A stretch of DNA of 64,000 nt from Citrobacter freundii ATCC 8090 = MTCC 1658 = NBRC 12681 (lineage in GTDB: Bacteria > Pseudomonadota > Gammaproteobacteria > Enterobacterales > Enterobacteriaceae): contig NZ_CP049015.1 of assembly GCF_011064845.1 (NCBI RefSeq), positions 2,790,001 to 2,854,000 on the forward strand, given 5' to 3'. Positions 3,122-44,761 of this stretch are shown here, in pieces (position 1 is the first letter of the stretch; each line of letters starts with the position of its first letter). A program made the position numbers and the translations under genes. Below the pieces are notes generated by a model. It saw nothing but the letters and a program-made list of their open reading frames with translations, had not been told where the DNA came from and searched no databases.

Positions 3122-4321
<1,200 letters not shown>

Positions 4322-4965
4322 TCAACGGGGAGCAGGTCAGTACCTCGTTTAACCCAAAACGTGTTATCACATACAACGTTAATAATGGCAAGCCATTTTT
4401 AAACGTGTCTCGATCGGTCGCACAAATCCTGTCGTTCATCAAACAGCAACTGCACAGTTATGCGCCACACCGAGTAGTGTTATATTCCCGCCGCTCGCCC
4501 CATCCCCCGCCAGGCTTGCACCATAGCCGGGACATTTCTACCATAGCTCAATAGCTTCGGTTGTTCCAGATTAGCTGTTACAGGGTGTGCTGAATATCAT
4601 TTTTTATGCTTAGTAATGCATAAAATGTCACAAGCGTAAAAATGAGATCTGCCTTCTGCTTTTGCACCAAAATAATGAAAGAATGATGACAATGCACAAA
4701 AAAAGTAAGAGAAACGTTTCGCTGTTAATAAAACGATCACTATCACAAAAATGACATAATCATATTTTTATCGTATGGGAAATTATATTTATATCAGACC
4801 GGGGATAAGATATTAATTGGCTGGAGCATCTGAAAATACTGAGTTAACACGAGAATCAGGGTGCTAATTACACGACATGTGCAGAAGAAAATAATCTGGC
4901 ATGTTGGCGACAGGATGAAACATCTGAGAACGTAAGTAACAGATCCTCACCCTGTCATACCGTTT
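4322..4965. other. Intergenic region between the IS and yebO
   Basis: No convincing gene is seen. The IS-proximal part carries a candidate promoter for the former yobF-cspC transcript (listed separately). The rest is AT-rich (about 4600-4900) and without recognisable features; the short frames in it lack ribosome sites and homology that I recognise. Confidence 0.5.
4363..4391 (-). promoter_or_regulatory. Candidate native promoter of yobF-cspC
   Basis: On the minus strand TTGCCA (4386-4391) and GATAAC (4363-4368) are separated by exactly 17 bases, pointing towards yobF-cspC. The IS5-family element begins about 45 bases downstream of it, so cspC expression must now read through or start within the element. 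Confidence 0.55.
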
Positions 4966-5250
4966 TTACCGCTCAGCTACCAGGCGGATGATGTCATCAT
5001 CTTCGTCCTTCGCTGTGACCACAGCAGGCTCTGCCGCTTTTTCAGGTTCGTTAGCTTCGCAAAGGCGACGGAGCAATGCGTTCTGTCTTTTTTGCTGATC
5101 TAACAATGCTTCAAGCAGCTCAATCTGCTCATTAGTACGCGAACTTGCCCTATTGACGAAAAACCACAGTACAAGCCCGACAACCAGAATCACCACCGAT
5201 ACAGCCAAAGACGCCAAACTCAACGCGCCAGAATTCAAAACTTCGTTCAT
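4966..5250 (-). CDS. yebO: YebO family membrane protein
   Basis: A 94-residue protein with one N-terminal membrane helix (about residues 14-33, LASLAVSVVILVVGLVLWFF) and a charged, partly coiled C-terminal part. It matches E. coli YebO in length and position. Its function is not established. It lies 74 bases downstream of mgrB on the same strand and may share its PhoP-dependent transcript. Confidence 0.9.
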   Translation of the reverse strand: MNEVLNSGALSLASLAVSVVILVVGLVLWFFVNRASSRTNEQIELLEALLDQQKRQNALLRRLCEANEPEKAAEPAVVTAKDEDDDIIRLVAER

Positions 5251-5324
5251 TTCACCACCTCAATGTAGACAGCGTAGTTTACCACTGCCGCACAAGAAGG
5301 TAATCAACTGTGGCAAAAATGCGC

Positions 5325-5468
5325 TTACCAGGGAATAAATTTATTAATGGCACAAATACCGCTGAAAAATTGTACATCCTGATCGCACATGATGTTGAAC
5401 ACTTGCGCCCACATCAGTATGCATACCAGCACGACAACTATCAGCACTACCCAGCGAATTTTTTTCAC
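5325..5468 (-). CDS. mgrB: PhoP/PhoQ feedback regulator MgrB
   Basis: MgrB is a small inner-membrane protein that binds PhoQ and represses its kinase activity; loss causes colistin resistance in Klebsiella and relatives. The 47-codon frame starts with GTG at 5466-5468. It reads MKKIRWVV..., a membrane segment, the periplasmic cysteines in [18 protein letters not shown], and ends in KFIPW. Both functional cysteines are present and no interruption is seen, so the nearby IS element has not inactivated it. A ribosome site (GGAG) lies upstream of the GTG. Confidence 0.95.
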
Positions 5469-5505
5469 TCCAGCTCCACTCTTCGAATCAACATCTTATG
5501 CCTAT

Positions 5506-36853: not shown

Positions 36854-37129
36854 CTATGACTTGTTTCCACTCTCGTCAGCATTGGTTCGTTCTAACTCCC
36901 ACTCAACATCCCTCCCCTGGTACTGCGGCATTACCTCACCTTTGTCTACACTTGTCACAACCTTGTATGACTCATTTTTCCACAAGCCAGTCTGTGGGCA
37001 GATCTGGCCTGATGAACACGATGAAACCGATGGTCTTGAGTATGGGTTGTCATTAGTGCTGTAGAAATTACCGTATCCAGAACCATTTATTGAAGAAACC
37101 ATAAAAACACCACTTAAATAACCAGACAT
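36854..37129 (-). CDS. Unrecognised 91-residue protein with CPxTGxW segment
   Basis: A serine-rich N-terminus is followed by CSSGQICPQTGLWKNE and MPQYQGRDVEWELER. The Cys-Pro-x-Thr-Gly-x-Trp phrase recalls small proteins found with polymorphic toxins, but I cannot assign it. The start could also be the ATG nine codons later (37102). Confidence 0.5.
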   Translation of the reverse strand: MSGYLSGVFMVSSINGSGYGNFYSTNDNPYSRPSVSSCSSGQICPQTGLWKNESYKVVTSVDKGEVMPQYQGRDVEWELERTNADESGNKS

Positions 37130-37216
37130 AATTGCTCAAAGCGGCAATTAATGCTGATTATTAACAATGTCACATCCTAACTGTGAATTTAGTCACACCA
37201 ATACCATCAAGAAACG

Positions 37217-37339
37217 TTACTGCGTAGTCGCGAGCATGGCTGTACGACAGTCATTCCAACCCTCCGCGTACATTTTGGCGTCCTGCCAGTTTGTCTGTAC
37301 GTCAGGGTATGTTGTTTCGACCGTGGTTGGCTCTGCCAC
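37217..37339 (-). CDS. Possible 40-residue protein after cro
   Basis: The frame from GTG 37337-37339, overlapping the end of cro, reads VAEPTTVETTYPDVQTNW and then AKMYAEGWNDCRTAML. The AEGWNDCR phrase is common at the ends of small lambdoid early proteins, so this may be a short gene or the remnant of a longer one. Confidence 0.4.
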   Translation of the reverse strand: MAEPTTVETTYPDVQTNWQDAKMYAEGWNDCRTAMLATTQ

Positions 37340-37601
37340 TATCGGTGCTGGCTACTCTTTGATATGCAGCCGCGGTTCCCTGAGCTGGTAATCCATCCGT
37401 AGGGTTGGGATACAAATCTGGTCGAAGTTCATGTGGTGTAATACCTGTAACCCTGAAAATCGGTAATACGCGGTCCGGAGGAACAGCACCTTTATAACGC
37501 GTTTTCCAGCGGCTAACCGACATGGGCTTTATGCCCAGTAATGCTGCAAGATTGCTGGCATTACCTGCTTTTTTGATAGCTTTCTCTAATCCGTTCATCA
37601 T
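37302..37601 (-). CDS. Cro-like repressor (YdaS/Cro family)
   Basis: A 99-residue protein with an N-terminal helix-turn-helix (NASNLAALLGIKPMSVSRWKTRY). It should bind the same operators as the divergent repressor and favour lytic genes. The ATG at 37601 is preceded by GGAGAC; a second ATG follows directly. It is divergent from cI with three operator-like sites in between. Confidence 0.88.
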   Translation of the reverse strand: MMNGLEKAIKKAGNASNLAALLGIKPMSVSRWKTRYKGAVPPDRVLPIFRVTGITPHELRPDLYPNPTDGLPAQGTAAAYQRVASTDSGRANHGRNNIP

Positions 37602-37623
37602 TGTCTCCAAAAGATACACGAAC

Positions 37624-37654
37624 AAATTAAGCCTTAGACTTAAATACAAATCAA
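37624..37654 (-). promoter_or_regulatory. pR-like promoter of cro
   Basis: On the minus strand, TTGATT (37649-37654) and TAATTT (37624-37629) are 19 bases apart. Operator 1 overlaps the spacer and -10, the same geometry as at pL. Confidence 0.65.
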
Positions 37655-37692
37655 GCCTTGGGCGAGTTTTATTTTATAAGCAAAAGGCTTAT
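37627..37692. promoter_or_regulatory. Right operator cluster, three sites
   Basis: Site 1 (37627-37643) is TTAAGCCTTAGACTTAA. Site 2 (37651-37667) shares the half AAGCCTT. Site 3 (37676-37692) is ATAAGCAAAAGGCTTAT. They fill the cro-cI gap like OR1-3 of lambda, and the site 1 sequence recurs at the left operator. Confidence 0.75.
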
Positions 37693-37701
37693 TCTTTTGA
37701 T

Positions 37702-38088
37702 ATGGCTGAGAAAAAAATACTTAACCCGATTCTCATCGAGCGTTTGACAGAACTGACGCAGCGGGGAATGACAAAATCTGATATGGCAAGGGTTGCAGGG
37801 ATTACTCCGCAATCCGTAAATGGCTGGTTTAAAAAAGGGGTTATCAGCAAAAATTCAGCATTAGCTGTTGCTGATGCTGCTGGGGTATCCGTCCCCTGGC
37901 TACTTGGTGAGGATGTCGGAGAGAAGGATGGCCTTAAGCCTGACGAACAGCGCCTGCTGGAGCTCTACCGCCAACTGCCAGAAGAAGAACAACAGAACAT
38001 GTTGCGGATCGTATCTCTGCGATTGAAAGAGCTCGACGAACTATACGCGAAGTACATGGGGCGTAGAATTAGAAGTGAACCAGAATAA
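37702..38088 (+). CDS. Short CI-type prophage repressor (HTH only)
   Basis: A 128-residue protein from the ATG before AEKKILNPILIERL. It has a helix-turn-helix (MTKSDMARVAGITPQSVNGWFKKG, about residues 23-46), a segment SVPWLLGE typical of CI-like repressors, and a short helical tail (PEEEQQNMLRIVSLRLKEL) that may dimerise. It lacks the S24/LexA peptidase domain of lambda CI, so RecA-driven self-cleavage is not expected. It is divergent from cro. Confidence 0.88.
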   Translation: MAEKKILNPILIERLTELTQRGMTKSDMARVAGITPQSVNGWFKKGVISKNSALAVADAAGVSVPWLLGEDVGEKDGLKPDEQRLLELYRQLPEEEQQNMLRIVSLRLKELDELYAKYMGRRIRSEPE

Positions 38089-38238
38089 TGTGTTTACTTT
38101 CAAATGGTTAGTCTAATATAAATTTGTTATCGTGTGCCTAACAAGCAAGGTATATTTTTCACGACGCATACGAAAATAGCACTTAGATCAAAAACTCGAC
38201 ACTACACAAAAACGTAAATACTTACAGCAAGGCAATGC

Positions 38239-38712
38239 ATGCAAAAGTTGTGTTTTCCCCCGTTACTTACCGCGGGTTTCCATGATTTTGATGACGACGG
38301 ACTGAAGCGTTTATGTGTTGATAGCTTTCCAAAGTCATTGCGCCGAAATGATTTATACTGTAAATATATACAGCATATGAAATTCATTCGCGACATTAAC
38401 CTGCAAATAAAATGTTTTAGCGAAGTTTGGATAGATGGTTCATTTACTACAGAAAAACCAGAGCCAGATGATATTGATTTGCTTTTAGTTTTAGATTATC
38501 AAGCATTGAATCAGTTACCTTCTACATTGCATGGTCAGGTAGGAGCAATGCTGGATCGTCAATACGTAAAGCAGAATTTTAATATTGATGTTCTGCTCTT
38601 GGCTGAAAACCACCCTCAAGTTAACTATAGTGAAAGAAGAAGTTACTGGCGCGGTTGGTTTGGTTTTGATCGTAAGGAGAATCCAAAGGGTTTGGTGAGG
38701 ATCATGCTATGA
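38239..38712 (+). CDS. DUF6932-like nucleotidyltransferase, first gene of accessory pair
   Basis: A 157-residue protein with the DNA-polymerase-beta-type nucleotidyltransferase signature: G67-S68, D78-x-D80 (WIDGSFTTEKPEPDDIDLLL) and a third acid D117 (NFNIDVLL). The catalytic set is therefore complete. The N-terminal part (FPPLLTAGFHDFDDDGLKRL) resembles the DUF6932 family. The stop overlaps the next gene's ATG (ATGA). It is AT-rich and lies between cI and the left operator, where lambdoid phages carry genes expressed in the lysogen. It probably modifies an RNA or protein with nucleotides, as an antitoxin or effector; the target is unknown. Confidence 0.75.
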   Translation: MQKLCFPPLLTAGFHDFDDDGLKRLCVDSFPKSLRRNDLYCKYIQHMKFIRDINLQIKCFSEVWIDGSFTTEKPEPDDIDLLLVLDYQALNQLPSTLHGQVGAMLDRQYVKQNFNIDVLLLAENHPQVNYSERRSYWRGWFGFDRKENPKGLVRIML

Positions 38713-39641
38713 ACGATGATAAAATTTTCAAGTCATTAAATGACAGAATTGCTTTCGTTCAGCGTGAGGTTGACTCTCTTTCCCTAACGAGTAATCACAC
38801 TTTTGCTGATAGAGTTTTATTCAACTCTATGGATTCTCATTTAAGCGATTTACTGGAAGAAAAACGTCACATCGAGTCGAGACACCCACTGGTTGACTTC
38901 ATGGAGTTACGCCTCAGAGGGACTTTGGTTGATTTTGGAACAATTCCTTTAGAGCTTCTTTCTGCATTATCTGGCAGTTTGGCAGGGCTAATTCAAAAAG
39001 CGACACACAGAATCTCAAGCGGTAAAGACTCCAGTAGAGTACCGCAAAGTATAAGAACACAACTAGATATGCGGCTTGCTGACTTAACACCAGGCTCAAC
39101 AAGGTTAGCTATCACCTTTTCAACAGGATCGTGTGAATTGGTTGATACTGTTTCGAGCCATGCTGTTAAGGAGATTTTTTCACTTTTAGGCACTGATAGT
39201 GACGTTGAGTTCATCTCGAAAATTGCTGAAATAGGTACAAATTCTGCCGCCAGTTTGCAAAAAATTGCCCAAGAATGTGAAAAGAACAACTTAAACTTTG
39301 ATCTTAGTTGGGTTGGCCCTCTTAGTAATGGAAAACGCCATGTTTCATTGAACAATGAACGTTTACGTAAGTTATCTCAGCGCCTAATGACCACACATGT
39401 ATCCAAACCTTACGATGAAGTTATCACCGGTGAATTAGCTTTATTATCTATGTTCGGGAAATTGGAAATAGTCAATGAATTCGGCAAGTTTAAATGCTCA
39501 TATCCTATTGAAATGCTTGGTAACTTGCAAAGTAAATATAAGGTAGGGGAGCGTGTGAGCGTAATTGCGACGGTTACAGAAATACACAACGAGAGACTGA
39601 ATTACGTCAAAAAAAATCTAATGATTAAAAGTTTCCAGTAA
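38709..39641 (+). CDS. Unrecognised 310-residue partner of the nucleotidyltransferase
   Basis: A soluble protein in three parts: charged helices (1-60), a middle domain with ELRLRGTLVDFGTIPLELLS and a conserved-looking LTPGSTRLAI phrase (about 62-160), and a C-terminal β-rich part (about 232-305, GKFKCSYPIEML, YKVGERVSVIATVTEI) that could be an OB-like barrel. One R-x4-H string (R225-H230) is present but is weak evidence for a HEPN nuclease. Translation is coupled to the nucleotidyltransferase. A strong terminator follows. I cannot name the family. Confidence 0.75.
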   Translation: MNDDKIFKSLNDRIAFVQREVDSLSLTSNHTFADRVLFNSMDSHLSDLLEEKRHIESRHPLVDFMELRLRGTLVDFGTIPLELLSALSGSLAGLIQKATHRISSGKDSSRVPQSIRTQLDMRLADLTPGSTRLAITFSTGSCELVDTVSSHAVKEIFSLLGTDSDVEFISKIAEIGTNSAASLQKIAQECEKNNLNFDLSWVGPLSNGKRHVSLNNERLRKLSQRLMTTHVSKPYDEVITGELALLSMFGKLEIVNEFGKFKCSYPIEMLGNLQSKYKVGERVSVIATVTEIHNERLNYVKKNLMIKSFQ

Positions 39642-39651
39642 AGTTTTGACT

Positions 39652-39676
39652 CCCGGCCTTCGCGCCGGGTTTTTTA
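39652..39676 (+). terminator. Terminator of the accessory operon
   Basis: The stem CCCGGC/GCCGGG is followed by six T bases, 10 bases after the stop of the 310-residue gene. Confidence 0.92.
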
Positions 39677-39880
39677 TTGCCCTTTTCTCATCATAGCTGC
39701 CGCATCCCGCAATACACCTTTGTGAATCACATTTCCCACTGCCCTGCGCTTAGCCTCTAGGCTGTCAACAATTGCATACCGGCTGATCACAATCCCGTTA
39801 GCTATCAGACTGACAACTGCACCACCAATCTCACCCGCAATGAATGCTGCGCGGTCTTCTTCCAGTTCGTCACGATCCAT
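39674..39880 (-). CDS. Small phage protein at the end of the immunity region
   Basis: A 68-residue protein (MDRDELEEDRAAFIAGEIGGAVVSLIANGIVISRYAIVD...). It is on the opposite strand to the accessory operon and convergent with it; its last codons overlap the U-tract of the terminator. The ATG at 39880 is chosen over one 12 codons upstream. I do not recognise the family. Confidence 0.6.
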   Translation of the reverse strand: MDRDELEEDRAAFIAGEIGGAVVSLIANGIVISRYAIVDSLEAKRRAVGNVIHKGVLRDAAAMMRKGQ

Positions 39881-39943
39881 AACCAACCCTCTATGATGCT
39901 TTTCTGACCATAGCATCCTCTACTCACGTGTATTCGTCAAAAA

Positions 39944-39960
39944 ATAAGCCCGAAACTTAA
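39944..39960. promoter_or_regulatory. Left operator site 2
   Basis: ATAAGCCCGAAACTTAA matches 13 of 17 positions of right operator site 1. Confidence 0.65.
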
Positions 39961-39980
39961 CCATGAGATTAGTTGAAGGC

Positions 39981-40010
39981 TTGACACCAATTAAGTCTGA
40001 GGCTTAATAT
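39981..40010 (+). promoter_or_regulatory. pL-like promoter with operator site 1
   Basis: TTGACA (39981-39986) and TAATAT (40005-40010) are 18 bases apart and direct transcription towards int. The operator TTAAGTCTGAGGCTTAA (39991-40007) lies over the spacer and -10; its reverse complement differs from right operator site 1 at a single base. Confidence 0.85.
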
Positions 40011-40240
40011 AAATCCACATCAACACAACCACCGAGGCAGGACGCCCACGAAGTAGCCGTCCGGGGCATACGAAGACCGGAATGAGGTGGCGAGATTAAC
40101 GCGCAGTAGGTTTGAAATGTTCCGCCAGCCTGGCGACAAGGGCAAACACAGAAGTGAGCTTCGCGGTGGCGAATTGCAGAGTGAAAAAATCAGCGCCGCA
40201 GCGCCACCAGCGAAGTTCACTCAGAAAACTGGAGAACATC
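40011..40240. other. pL leader
   Basis: No supported gene; in lambdoid phages this stretch carries the antiterminator gene or nut-like sites, but neither can be recognised here. Confidence 0.4.
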
Positions 40241-40447
40241 ATGGTTCATCAGCACTACGGTACACAGACAGTAAACCGCGGCGCAGTTCAGCCGGGGATG
40301 CTCGTCAAACACAAAGACTCAACCTGGACGGCATCAGCTAACGCTCGCGGACGTTTGTATCTGCATCGCGGCGTGGAGATGACTTACACCAAGGATTTGC
40401 TGGTTGAAGTTTATCTAAACGGTCTGGGGCATGGCCTCAGGCACTAG
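40241..40447 (+). CDS. Small early phage protein (68 aa)
   Basis: The ATG at 40241 with GGAG upstream opens MVHQHYGTQTVNRGAVQPGMLVKHKDSTW..., a soluble β-rich protein of a type often seen in the pL operon of lambdoid prophages. The function is unknown. It is followed by the cysteine-rich gene 12 bases later. Confidence 0.7.
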   Translation: MVHQHYGTQTVNRGAVQPGMLVKHKDSTWTASANARGRLYLHRGVEMTYTKDLLVEVYLNGLGHGLRH

Positions 40448-40458
40448 CGGAGGATGTC

Positions 40459-40620
40459 ATGTTAGACAAGAAATGCGGATATTGCGGCAAGCCGGTTAAA
40501 ACTGAAGAAGTAATCAAAAGCACCCTTCTCTATCGCAACGGCTCACAGCTGGCACGCAAAGAGAAAGAGTATTGTTCCAAGCGCTGCGCTTCTTACGACC
40601 AGATGGCGCACGAAGGCTAA
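40459..40620 (+). CDS. Small zinc-ribbon early protein (53 aa)
   Basis: A short protein with CGYCGK and CSKRC pairs, starting MLDKKCGYCGKPVKTEEV, very probably a zinc ribbon. GGAGG lies seven bases before the ATG. The function is unknown. It is part of the pL operon. Confidence 0.75.
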   Translation: MLDKKCGYCGKPVKTEEVIKSTLLYRNGSQLARKEKEYCSKRCASYDQMAHEG

Positions 40621-40706
40621 ATAGCAGTCCCAAAATATGAAATTAAAAATTCGCCATTAGTTTGGCGTGGATTCTTACACCCTGAATAAACCAACAGGAA
40701 TAATTT

Positions 40707-40994
40707 ATGAAAATCGTAAAAGTCGAATTAAATCTGAAAGCAGTAAATAAAGAAATTGCTTTATTCAACTGCGAAAAGAAAGTGTCTGGCGTTATTCACT
40801 CAATCAAAAACGGTGCAACAACCGTCGTTCTCGATGGCGGCTATGTGCTCGGTCAGTTCGATTGCCCTCACTGTGCAGTAACAGCCATTTCACTGCTTGC
40901 GGTGCAGGTGAGCGATGGTGATAAGGCAGGTTTTGGTAACTACCGCAGCTACAAACTCGATTACTCAGAAAGAGTTTTCAGCATCGTGCATTAA
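40707..40994 (+). CDS. Early phage protein (95 aa)
   Basis: A soluble protein (MKIVKVELNLKAVNKEIALFNCEKKVSGVIHSI...) with a CPHC pair. It lies just before the recE-like gene. I do not recognise a characterised family. AGGAA precedes the ATG. Confidence 0.7.
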   Translation: MKIVKVELNLKAVNKEIALFNCEKKVSGVIHSIKNGATTVVLDGGYVLGQFDCPHCAVTAISLLAVQVSDGDKAGFGNYRSYKLDYSERVFSIVH

Positions 40995-41865
40995 GAAAAC
41001 GCCCACCGAAGCGGGCGTGCCCTGTCCGGTCCAACCGACCAAAGCGTACCGGACATAACAACCTGCTATATCGGGGTGCTGTTAAGGCACCTCCATTCTA
41101 CACGAATCGAGGATAAAGTAATGAGTGGAACTAATCCTGTATTTTTAGTCCGCAGAGCAAAAAAACAATCCGGTAATAAAGATGCGGTGCTCTGGTGCAG
41201 CGATGATTTTGAGGCTGTAAATGCAACACTGGATTATTTGTTGATTAAAACTGGCGCGAAGCTGAAAAATTATTTTAAAGCTGTAGCCACTAATTTTCCA
41301 GTCGTTAATGAGTTGCCTCCAGAAGGCGAACTCAGCTTAACGTTTTGCGATTTCTACCGCCTCCGCGACGACAATATGACATGGGAACAAATCCCAGGTG
41401 TTACGTTGCCCTCTTCTGATGCGGCCGCCGAAGCACGTCAGCATATCGTTAACGGTGTTGATACCTCCACCGGAGAAATTGTCGATCAATCTCAGTTAGA
41501 CCAGTCTGACAACAATGGCCTGGACGTCGATGAATACGACGATGAATACACCCGGTACCCGATCGTTCAGATGCCCTTCCGTAAGCAACTATTGTCCCAG
41601 TTCACATCCGATGCGCTTCGTCATCATCTCACTCTGACAGAGCATAAAGAGATAGTCGGTCTGGAAATGGATACCGATAACGGATACGTCCAGAACCTGA
41701 TACTTGCAGCCGAAAGTGTCGAAGGTATCAAGAAACTCGACATGCCGTTCCTCTGGCAATATACGAAAGCAATGAAGGACGTATTTGATCCAGAAAAACG
41801 CCACGAGCTTTCTCTTATGTTGCATTTTTCTAAAGCCTGGATTGAAACCACGCATATTGTAGTGG

Positions 41866-43034
<1,169 letters not shown>

Positions 43035-44761
43035 TGAGGCACCTGTAATGTTCTGAGGTGAGCATATCACCTCTGTTCAGGTGGCCAAATTCAGTAAACC
43101 ACTACATATTGATCGCGGCACCTTAGTAAAAGAGTGGATTGCCGGGAACCGCATCAGCAAGGTGTTGCCACCAAACACGCCGGAGAAAGCGCCAGAGAAA
43201 AAAGAAAAGTTAACGACAGTGACGGCAGAACGCTACAAACGTGCCGTTGCTCAGTCTATCTATAACCTGAATGTTGAATCCTGTATTGCCCGCATTTATC
43301 CCGACGCGGAACCCGGTTCAATTACGGTAGAACAATTAAAATCAGCGAAAGAACTCATCGACTCTCGCGATGACATACAAGCCAAAGTTATTAAAGTCAT
43401 TTCTCAAATTAATGACATCATGGATTACGATGCCCTCTCAATTTTTGGCGTCACTCGCGCTATTGACTGGAGTGACTGCCTGAATATCGGTCCTGTAATA
43501 CTGCGAGATCAGGCGCGTAAGTGGCTGGCTGAAAACGGCATCTATTCCAACGGTAAGAAGTCGAACGGCTATAGAGAATGGGAGGAAGATCCTCGCTCGG
43601 CGCGCCACTCCGATAGCCCATCAACGGAAGAAGTTGGTAAGCAACTTGCTGCTCAGCGTGGAGAGTTCGTCGAGGGTATCAGCGACCCTGATGATCCTAA
43701 ATGGGTAAAAACTGAGACAAGCCAGCAGTCTGCAGAAACAGAGCTGGTTAAAAATGTCGGTAACGGAATATTCGACGTTACGGCTTTGCTGCAGAACTCA
43801 GCAACTCATGGCACGAAAAAAGCTACGGAGACCACCAGCAATGTGCAGGTTCAAGAAACTGTCAGTGATGAAAAACAGGCTGGTGATGCGCTGCATACAG
43901 GCAAGAGCAGTGTGGAAACTGGTGAAGAGTCACATACCAGCCAGCAAGCCGATGTAAACCAGAATACAAATTCTGTCCCCCAAAATAGCGATTCTGTAAA
44001 CCAAACCGAACCAGTTGCGGCACAAACCGAGCCAGAAGCGCAATCTGACGAACCGGCTATTGTTTACCCCGCTTACTTCGAGCCAGGCCGCTATGAGGGT
44101 TTGCCGAACGAGGTTTATCACGCAGCGAACGGTATCAGCTCTATCACCACACGTAACTCGCCACTGTGGAAAACAGCGCCGAAGCAGCAGATCGCTTATT
44201 TGGCAGTGAAGTACTGGGCACGCTTGTACTGCCCTGAAGTCATCCTCGGCGTCTACAGCCCAGATGAAGTTGAGCCGCGTACTGAGAAAGAGATTAACCC
44301 GGCACCGAAGCACGTTAACCTGGCTGAAATTTCTGGTGACACCGTCACAACCACGCAAAGCGCACAGGAATCGTCGGTAAATATCGACTCTCTTGCCGAT
44401 GATTTCCGCGAACGAATCGATGCCGCTCAGGATGTTGATAGTGCAAAAGCACTGCGCGCTGATATCGAAAGCGCGAAGACCACGCTCGGTTCAGCCCTGT
44501 TCACTGAGCTGAAGAACAAAGCGGTGAAGCGCTACTACCTGGTTGATTCACGTAACAAGGTTGAGGCCGCGATCAACTCCCTGCCGTCTCCGGGCGAACC
44601 GGATGCAACGGCGCGTTTCGGGGAAGTTGAGCGAGTTCTTGCAACTGCGAAACGTCATCTGGGCGACGAGCTGCACGATCAGTTCAGCATCACCCTGGCG
44701 GATATGAAACCGGAATACGTGGCCTAAGGGAGGCGGGAGGGTCCGCCCTCCCGGTAACAAG

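Follow-up and report, generated by a model that had tools for sequence, protein, structure and literature searches.

The 64,000-nucleotide stretch of Citrobacter freundii ATCC 8090 analysed here (contig NZ_CP049015.1, positions 2,790,001 to 2,854,000; hereafter the window) contains, between the repressor gene and the left operator of a lambdoid prophage, two coupled genes. They constitute a real, conserved two-gene cargo of such prophages, already catalogued by PADLOC as the candidate system PDC-M63. Gene 1 encodes a nucleotidyltransferase (NTase) of the DUF6932 family, and gene 2 encodes a partner with a predicted OB-fold domain. The pair and the features that frame it are listed below.

37702..38088, plus strand: phage repressor of 128 amino acids (aa) with an XRE/CI-type helix-turn-helix (HTH; Pfam HTH_3 over the cut-off), the upstream border of the cargo slot
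38239..38712, plus strand: gene 1, DUF6932 / PDC-M63A nucleotidyltransferase, 157 aa (PF22014, PDC-M63A, structure model)
38709..39641, plus strand: gene 2, PDC-M63B, 310 aa (PDC-M63B, phrog_6603)
39652..39677, plus strand: intrinsic terminator after gene 2 (six GC pairs, a loop of 6, T run)
39981..40010, plus strand: promoter-like TTGACA-18-TAATAT, the downstream border of the slot (consensus scan only)

The first-pass annotation had described two ATGA-coupled, AT-rich open reading frames (ORFs) at these coordinates, followed by a strong terminator, and both elements of that description hold. The genes overlap via ATGA, and their GC contents are 0.382 and 0.389, compared with 0.488 for the whole window. 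The terminator hairpin starts about 10 bases past the gene 2 stop codon and is present in both the minimum-free-energy and the centroid fold (z −1.75, with 5 of 200 shuffles equally good). In the consensus scan, no plus-strand promoter-like or terminator-like site was listed in the gap between the repressor and gene 1, and the pair is therefore probably read from the repressor promoter; judged from the sequence, such read-through is plausible. The TTGACA-18-TAATAT site at 39981 fits a candidate leftward early promoter, with the proviso that promoter calls are consensus matches and that the region held 4 promoter-like sites versus 5.7 in shuffles. The closest record, an IMG/VR contig, is identical across 37000–41000, and the gene 2 product is identical in Citrobacter werkmanii NBRC 105721. 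The order of repressor, pair, and N or Kil is repeated in the annotated phages vB_EhrS_59, mEpX1, and PhiR30_1.

Gene 1 is a Pol-beta-type nucleotidyltransferase with an intact, near-invariant site, and its residues predict an active enzyme. It matches DUF6932 in Pfam (PF22014, E 8e-25, 88.4 bits against a cut-off of 27), PDC-M63A in PADLOC (E 5.8e-41 over residues 1–156), and phrog_9194 (E 4e-61). At E values up to 1, Pfam returned beyond DUF6932 just the Pol-beta palm (E 0.18) and no AbiEii-type match. The complete catalytic site read earlier from this single sequence (GS, DxD, and D117) is upheld by alignment, in which G67, S68, D78, and D80 are present in 83 of 83 relatives and D117 in 82 of 83. 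A YWRG...PKG motif lies toward the C-terminus. The structure model has a predicted local distance difference test score of 95.8 and matches NTase folds.

Gene 2 had been assigned to no recognisable family, a statement that has to be withdrawn given its matches to PDC-M63B (PADLOC, E 3.6e-41) and phrog_6603 (E 3.3e-130), while scans of Pfam and NCBIfam gave no family above chance. The predicted layout comprises N-terminal helices, a mixed middle region, and a C-terminal OB-fold at approximately residues 233–310. Across 99 homologues R68, S130, T136, and W201 are invariant; E237 (96 of 99) is the sole acidic residue conserved at 90% or above, a level that no histidine or cysteine reaches. By residue pattern, the distant family of gene 2 has no catalytic set in common. 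The RxxxxH-type motif of HEPN proteins is not conserved either, with the R225–H230 spacing of the window in 1 of 99 homologues and R53–H59 in 14 of 99, in agreement with the earlier view that gene 2 is not an evident HEPN partner.

Whether homologues of the pair stay together was a question raised in the first pass. In all 44 of the loci fetched (L001–L044; mostly gathered via gene 2, not independent, and in some cases the same record), as in the window, profiles of the two genes located them side by side in an unchanged order. Fourteen variants were distinguished by more than 3% gene 2 DNA difference, with L005, L006, L009, L010, and the minus-strand L007 left out. Both genes are fragmented in L005, an Enterobacter plasmid record, and the remaining loci show one unbroken match per gene. 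The ratio of nonsynonymous to synonymous substitution rates (dN/dS) was 0.03–0.13 in the six comparisons yielding a value; these values are rough because dS, at 1.0–2.8, is near saturation. M63B occurs in 4 of 398 Pseudomonadota genomes (a set that counts the Citrobacter centre), all of which also carry DUF6932. In 5,426 complete Escherichia coli genomes, one variant is present in 96 (gene 1 in 96 genomes at 98 places, gene 2 in 96 at 96 places) and a second in 18, with two records shared between the lists, giving about 2% together. The pair was also found beyond annotated prophages. In L006 (NZ_AP026896.1), a distant M63 pair lies, by eye, between transposase-like genes; this record, from Aeromonas caviae, bears the title plasmid pKAM479_3 and is 4.94 Mb long, a length that points to mislabelling or to a fusion of records.

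The position of the pair was surveyed in the best 80 of 457 viral relatives of the repressor (L067–L146). The region between repressor and N is a common site for morons such as rexAB and bstA, the latter transcribed from the cI promoter, according to PMC7067206, and the window cargo resembles lambda rexAB and BTP1 bstA in lying there. Four family scans gave no rex or bstA family among their matches, the presence of rex models in each library being unchecked. In 69 of the 80 loci, the slot holds one to three ORFs of at least 70 aa, which by BLAST form 24 groups with no gene family in common, at least one group being a doubtful low-complexity ORF. The M63 pair occupies 4 of the 80. Eleven loci lack a cargo ORF: in 10 of these the last repressor-like match stops 125–157 bases short of the right flank, and in one the contig ends.

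Cassette exchange is visible in phages SW-37, AREA_C483, and SEN34, which carry the same repressor and left-flank DNA around different cargo. DNA matches of the window's left flank with SEN34, SW-37, and E. coli AREA_C483 stop at 38058–38071, and right-flank DNA shared with these differently loaded phages restarts at 39652 (SW-37) or at 39942–39945 (AREA_C483, SEN34). The exchanged cargo is HipA_2 plus DUF3037, matching PDC-M66A/B, in SW-37; a single 467-aa gene without a family in AREA_C483; and a second HTH gene in SEN34. Among the slot proteins, Pfam or PADLOC confirmed a PIN protein, an HTH protein, an AAA protein resembling HEC-04, and an MqsA antitoxin whose neighbour matches SecB weakly, at 22 bits against a cut-off of 26; no Pfam family was returned for four further slot proteins scanned. 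HTH-containing three-gene sets also occur in the slot, and the cassette groups constitute a candidate list. An 80-aa minus-strand ORF (39674–39916) is antisense to the downstream border, with a 68-aa version in Salmonella phage SW-37 (L065, 3929–4135).

One slot cassette places, by eye, a 238-aa protein upstream of a PIN-like gene in 8 of 9 loci (e.g., L103 4992–5705 and L085 5699–6244; L154 did not fit the search frame, and Pfam confirmed PIN for L085 only). Similar-looking pairs were seen by eye in L170–L173, the downstream gene of L170 having no Pfam family. The 238-aa protein is possibly an undescribed PIN antitoxin family. In layout it seems to resemble gene 2, and a test of this likeness failed.

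DUF6932 itself exchanges partners. It gave 18 matches in 17 of the 398 Pseudomonadota genomes, and its neighbours are M63B in 4 cases, a second type of protein (302–334 aa) in 9, an XRE-IrrE protein in 4, and no visible partner in 1, the last three classes having been sorted by eye and afterwards tested in part. Gene 2 homologues align with 8 of the 9 second-type proteins (hhalign Prob 92.5, P 4.8e-7, 254 columns; reversed controls P 0.52 and 0.6). Of three XRE-IrrE proteins scanned with Pfam out of the four, all have HTH_3 and two have Peptidase_M78 over the cut-off. Wider flanks were fetched for 11 places, of which 7 were viewed and parts of 3 informative-looking ones scanned, a chosen sample. 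In one of them (L184), an integrase-like gene (by eye) is followed by DUF6932, PD-Lambda-2_B (E 1e-75), and PD-Lambda-2_C (E 2.1e-38), with no PD-Lambda-2_A match in that genome; DUF6932 thus takes the place of HigB in an operon of the PD-lambda-2 type. In L186, DUF6932 and its partner lie between type I HsdS and HsdR, with one extra gene ahead of HsdR, and in L187 they lie near Cas9 and Cas1. The L186 restriction operon also includes (3452–5478) a gene that by eye looks HEPN-like; after it comes a stretch that, again by eye, resembles an NTase and is fused to a type I specificity subunit (Specificity_I E 1e-91).

The partner module reaches beyond DUF6932 as well. Gene 2 is, on profile comparison, distantly related to PDC-M32A (PADLOC E 9.2e-5; hhalign Prob 68.2, P 4.7e-5, 207 columns; reversed controls 0.76 and 0.57) and perhaps, more weakly, to PDC-M02B (PADLOC E 6.4e-3; Prob 17.4, P 1.4e-3, 218 columns; reversed controls 0.82 and 0.85). 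M32A and M02B show no match to each other (P 0.59). M32A adjoins type I methylase-like genes (by eye), and M02B lies downstream of a DUF4365 gene in the two loci scanned (L175 and L178); in L175, a SIR2-like gene follows it (by eye). A far-reaching reading of these data, which we regard as speculative and rather unlikely to hold in full, is that DUF6932 is a widespread, unrecognised NTase toxin family and that gene 2 is one member of a superfamily of modular OB-fold inhibitors or sensors, combined with various enzymes (NTase, DUF4365, restriction, PIN) to yield many candidate defence systems. Its proposed members are PDC-M63B, the second DUF6932-linked type, PDC-M32A, PDC-M02B, and perhaps the PIN partner from the same slot.

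Comparison with known systems places the pair among several two-gene modules. Both window genes match PDC-M63 in order and adjacency, and no difference was seen. Like MNT-HEPN (type VII) toxin-antitoxin systems, the pair combines a small Pol-beta-type NTase (GS...DxD...D) of similar predicted fold with a coupled partner gene; the partner differs in lacking a conserved HEPN motif and in having an OB-fold domain. In AbiE the NTase gene is not first, whereas the enzyme gene leads in the window. Gene 1 also differs from the AbiE and MenAT enzymes in its DUF6932 assignment. Those systems join an NTase toxin to a dedicated neutraliser, and AbiE confers phage resistance, as described in PMC7725324 and PMC10435456. 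PD-lambda-2 consists of a HigB-like gene, an XRE-ImmA/IrrE peptidase, and a P4-related third gene. The likeness to it is the first-position DUF6932 of L184; the window pair lacks both the XRE-peptidase and the third gene, and gene 2 matches only the PDC-M63B, M32A, and M02B models. The strict adjacency and variable slot, the NTase and OB-fold assignments, the partner swaps, and the kinship with PDC-M32A and M02B are new here.

Building on the observed pairing, active-site conservation, predicted folds, cargo-slot location, and partner swapping, our best explanation, held tentatively, is that the pair is a toxin-antitoxin-like defence module with predicted defence activity, in which gene 1 is the NTase effector and gene 2 its inhibitor and sensor. 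The pair would be co-transcribed with the repressor in the lysogen, and gene 2 would bind and restrain gene 1. Phage-derived nucleic acid or protein, sensed by the OB-fold domain, would free the enzyme, which may then nucleotidylate a molecule of the host or the phage and so halt growth or phage production. By analogy with the MenT and AbiEii toxins, the likeliest substrate would be tRNA or some other RNA. This explanation is supported because the catalytic set of gene 1 is conserved and distant homologues of gene 2 lack such a set, and by the adjacency, the kinds of partner, the L184 context, the MqsA, PIN, and HipA_2–DUF3037 cassettes of the slot, and insertion sequence (IS) breaks in gene 1. 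Two interrupted E. coli copies were examined, each with gene 2 intact: in OkiPb01716 an IS3 near the gene 1 end removes the stretch with K150–G151, and in KL53 (second variant) ISVsa5 lies near gene 1 codon 50. These breaks speak mildly for gene 1 being the component that carries the cost, with the reservation that they are few and that polarity may play a part.

Several observations weigh against this assignment of roles. The chance of two insertions both falling in gene 1 is about 0.11, and of three about 0.04 (by hand), and IS insertions in gene 1 may also silence gene 2. MNT antitoxins are among the folds closest to gene 1. The fold of gene 2 is assigned at the C-terminus alone, and H59, C190, E66, D75, and D107 are conserved in 24 of 24 close relatives, so that gene 2 and its close relatives may have an enzyme activity of their own. 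PMC9519451 describes PD-lambda-2 as having a HigB-like first gene, a second gene whose toxicity on its own is relieved by the first, and a third needed for defence; since the first gene neutralises the second, DUF6932 in that slot could be an antitoxin. In Serratia, by contrast, PMC7725324 reports as functional a VapC toxin paired with an IrrE-like HTH antitoxin, which speaks for the main reading. The two reports imply opposite polarity for XRE-IrrE, and the swap alone therefore leaves undecided which M63 gene is harmful. The reverse arrangement, in which gene 1 would be an MNT-like antitoxin that nucleotidylates or binds a harmful gene 2, accordingly deserves attention, although we consider it unlikely. 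Finally, deletion of PDC-M63AB in an E. coli NILS69 prophage had no effect on 10 infecting phages, all virulent, in the account given by PMC12409345; multiple mutants were rescreened with 83 further phages, and that account does not state whether the PDC-M63AB mutant was included.

Three other readings were weighed as well. Superinfection exclusion, in which the NTase would modify an incoming phage component or signal only on infection, with gene 2 as sensor or scaffold and perhaps with specificity for temperate relatives, draws on the moron position shared with rexAB and bstA and on the use of virulent phages in the negative test; we hold it doubtful, as XRE-IrrE partner swaps and occurrence outside prophages fit a general defence or toxin-antitoxin module better. 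If the pair were instead addiction cargo maintaining the prophage, with no anti-phage role, the lack of a defence effect and the toxin-antitoxin-type cassettes in the slot would be expected, yet distant relatives occur in restriction and CRISPR neighbourhoods (2 loci picked from 11 fetched), and this reading appears improbable. A housekeeping or regulatory pair required for lysogeny or replication could account for the conserved place beside the repressor; the slot survey, in which the same repressor mostly accompanies other cassettes (the pair in 4 of 80 loci, no cargo ORF in 11, one of them cut by the contig end), and the copies outside annotated prophages make it scarcely credible. With respect to the exclusion, abortive-infection, or toxin-antitoxin function proposed in the first pass, an accessory, lysogen-expressed, defence-type cargo is well supported because of the variable slot, the strict pairing, and the relatives in a type I restriction operon, beside Cas9 and Cas1, and in a PD-lambda-2-type operon; a toxin-antitoxin or abortive-infection module is the best reading, and the published deletion is the negative result against it.

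Farther along the prophage, an IS3-type ORF pair lies on the minus strand (41866–43070, by eye) between ORFs 41076–41873 and 43081–44727. These two ORFs look like parts of one RecE-type exonuclease gene, and a prophage recombination gene thus appears interrupted.

Two variants of PDC-M63 alone account for about 2% of complete E. coli genomes, and the cultured phages mEpX1 and PhiR30_1 carry the system, yet no mechanism for it was found in the literature searched, and a text search of PMC9252829, on the PADLOC web server, returned no instance of 'PDC'. The slot between repressor and N is confirmed as a rich hunting ground for such systems. For PDC-M63 itself, the partner swaps give a concrete, testable reading, namely which gene is toxic and what the NTase modifies. 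More generally, they may reveal a protein module common to several PADLOC candidates that are so far listed apart.
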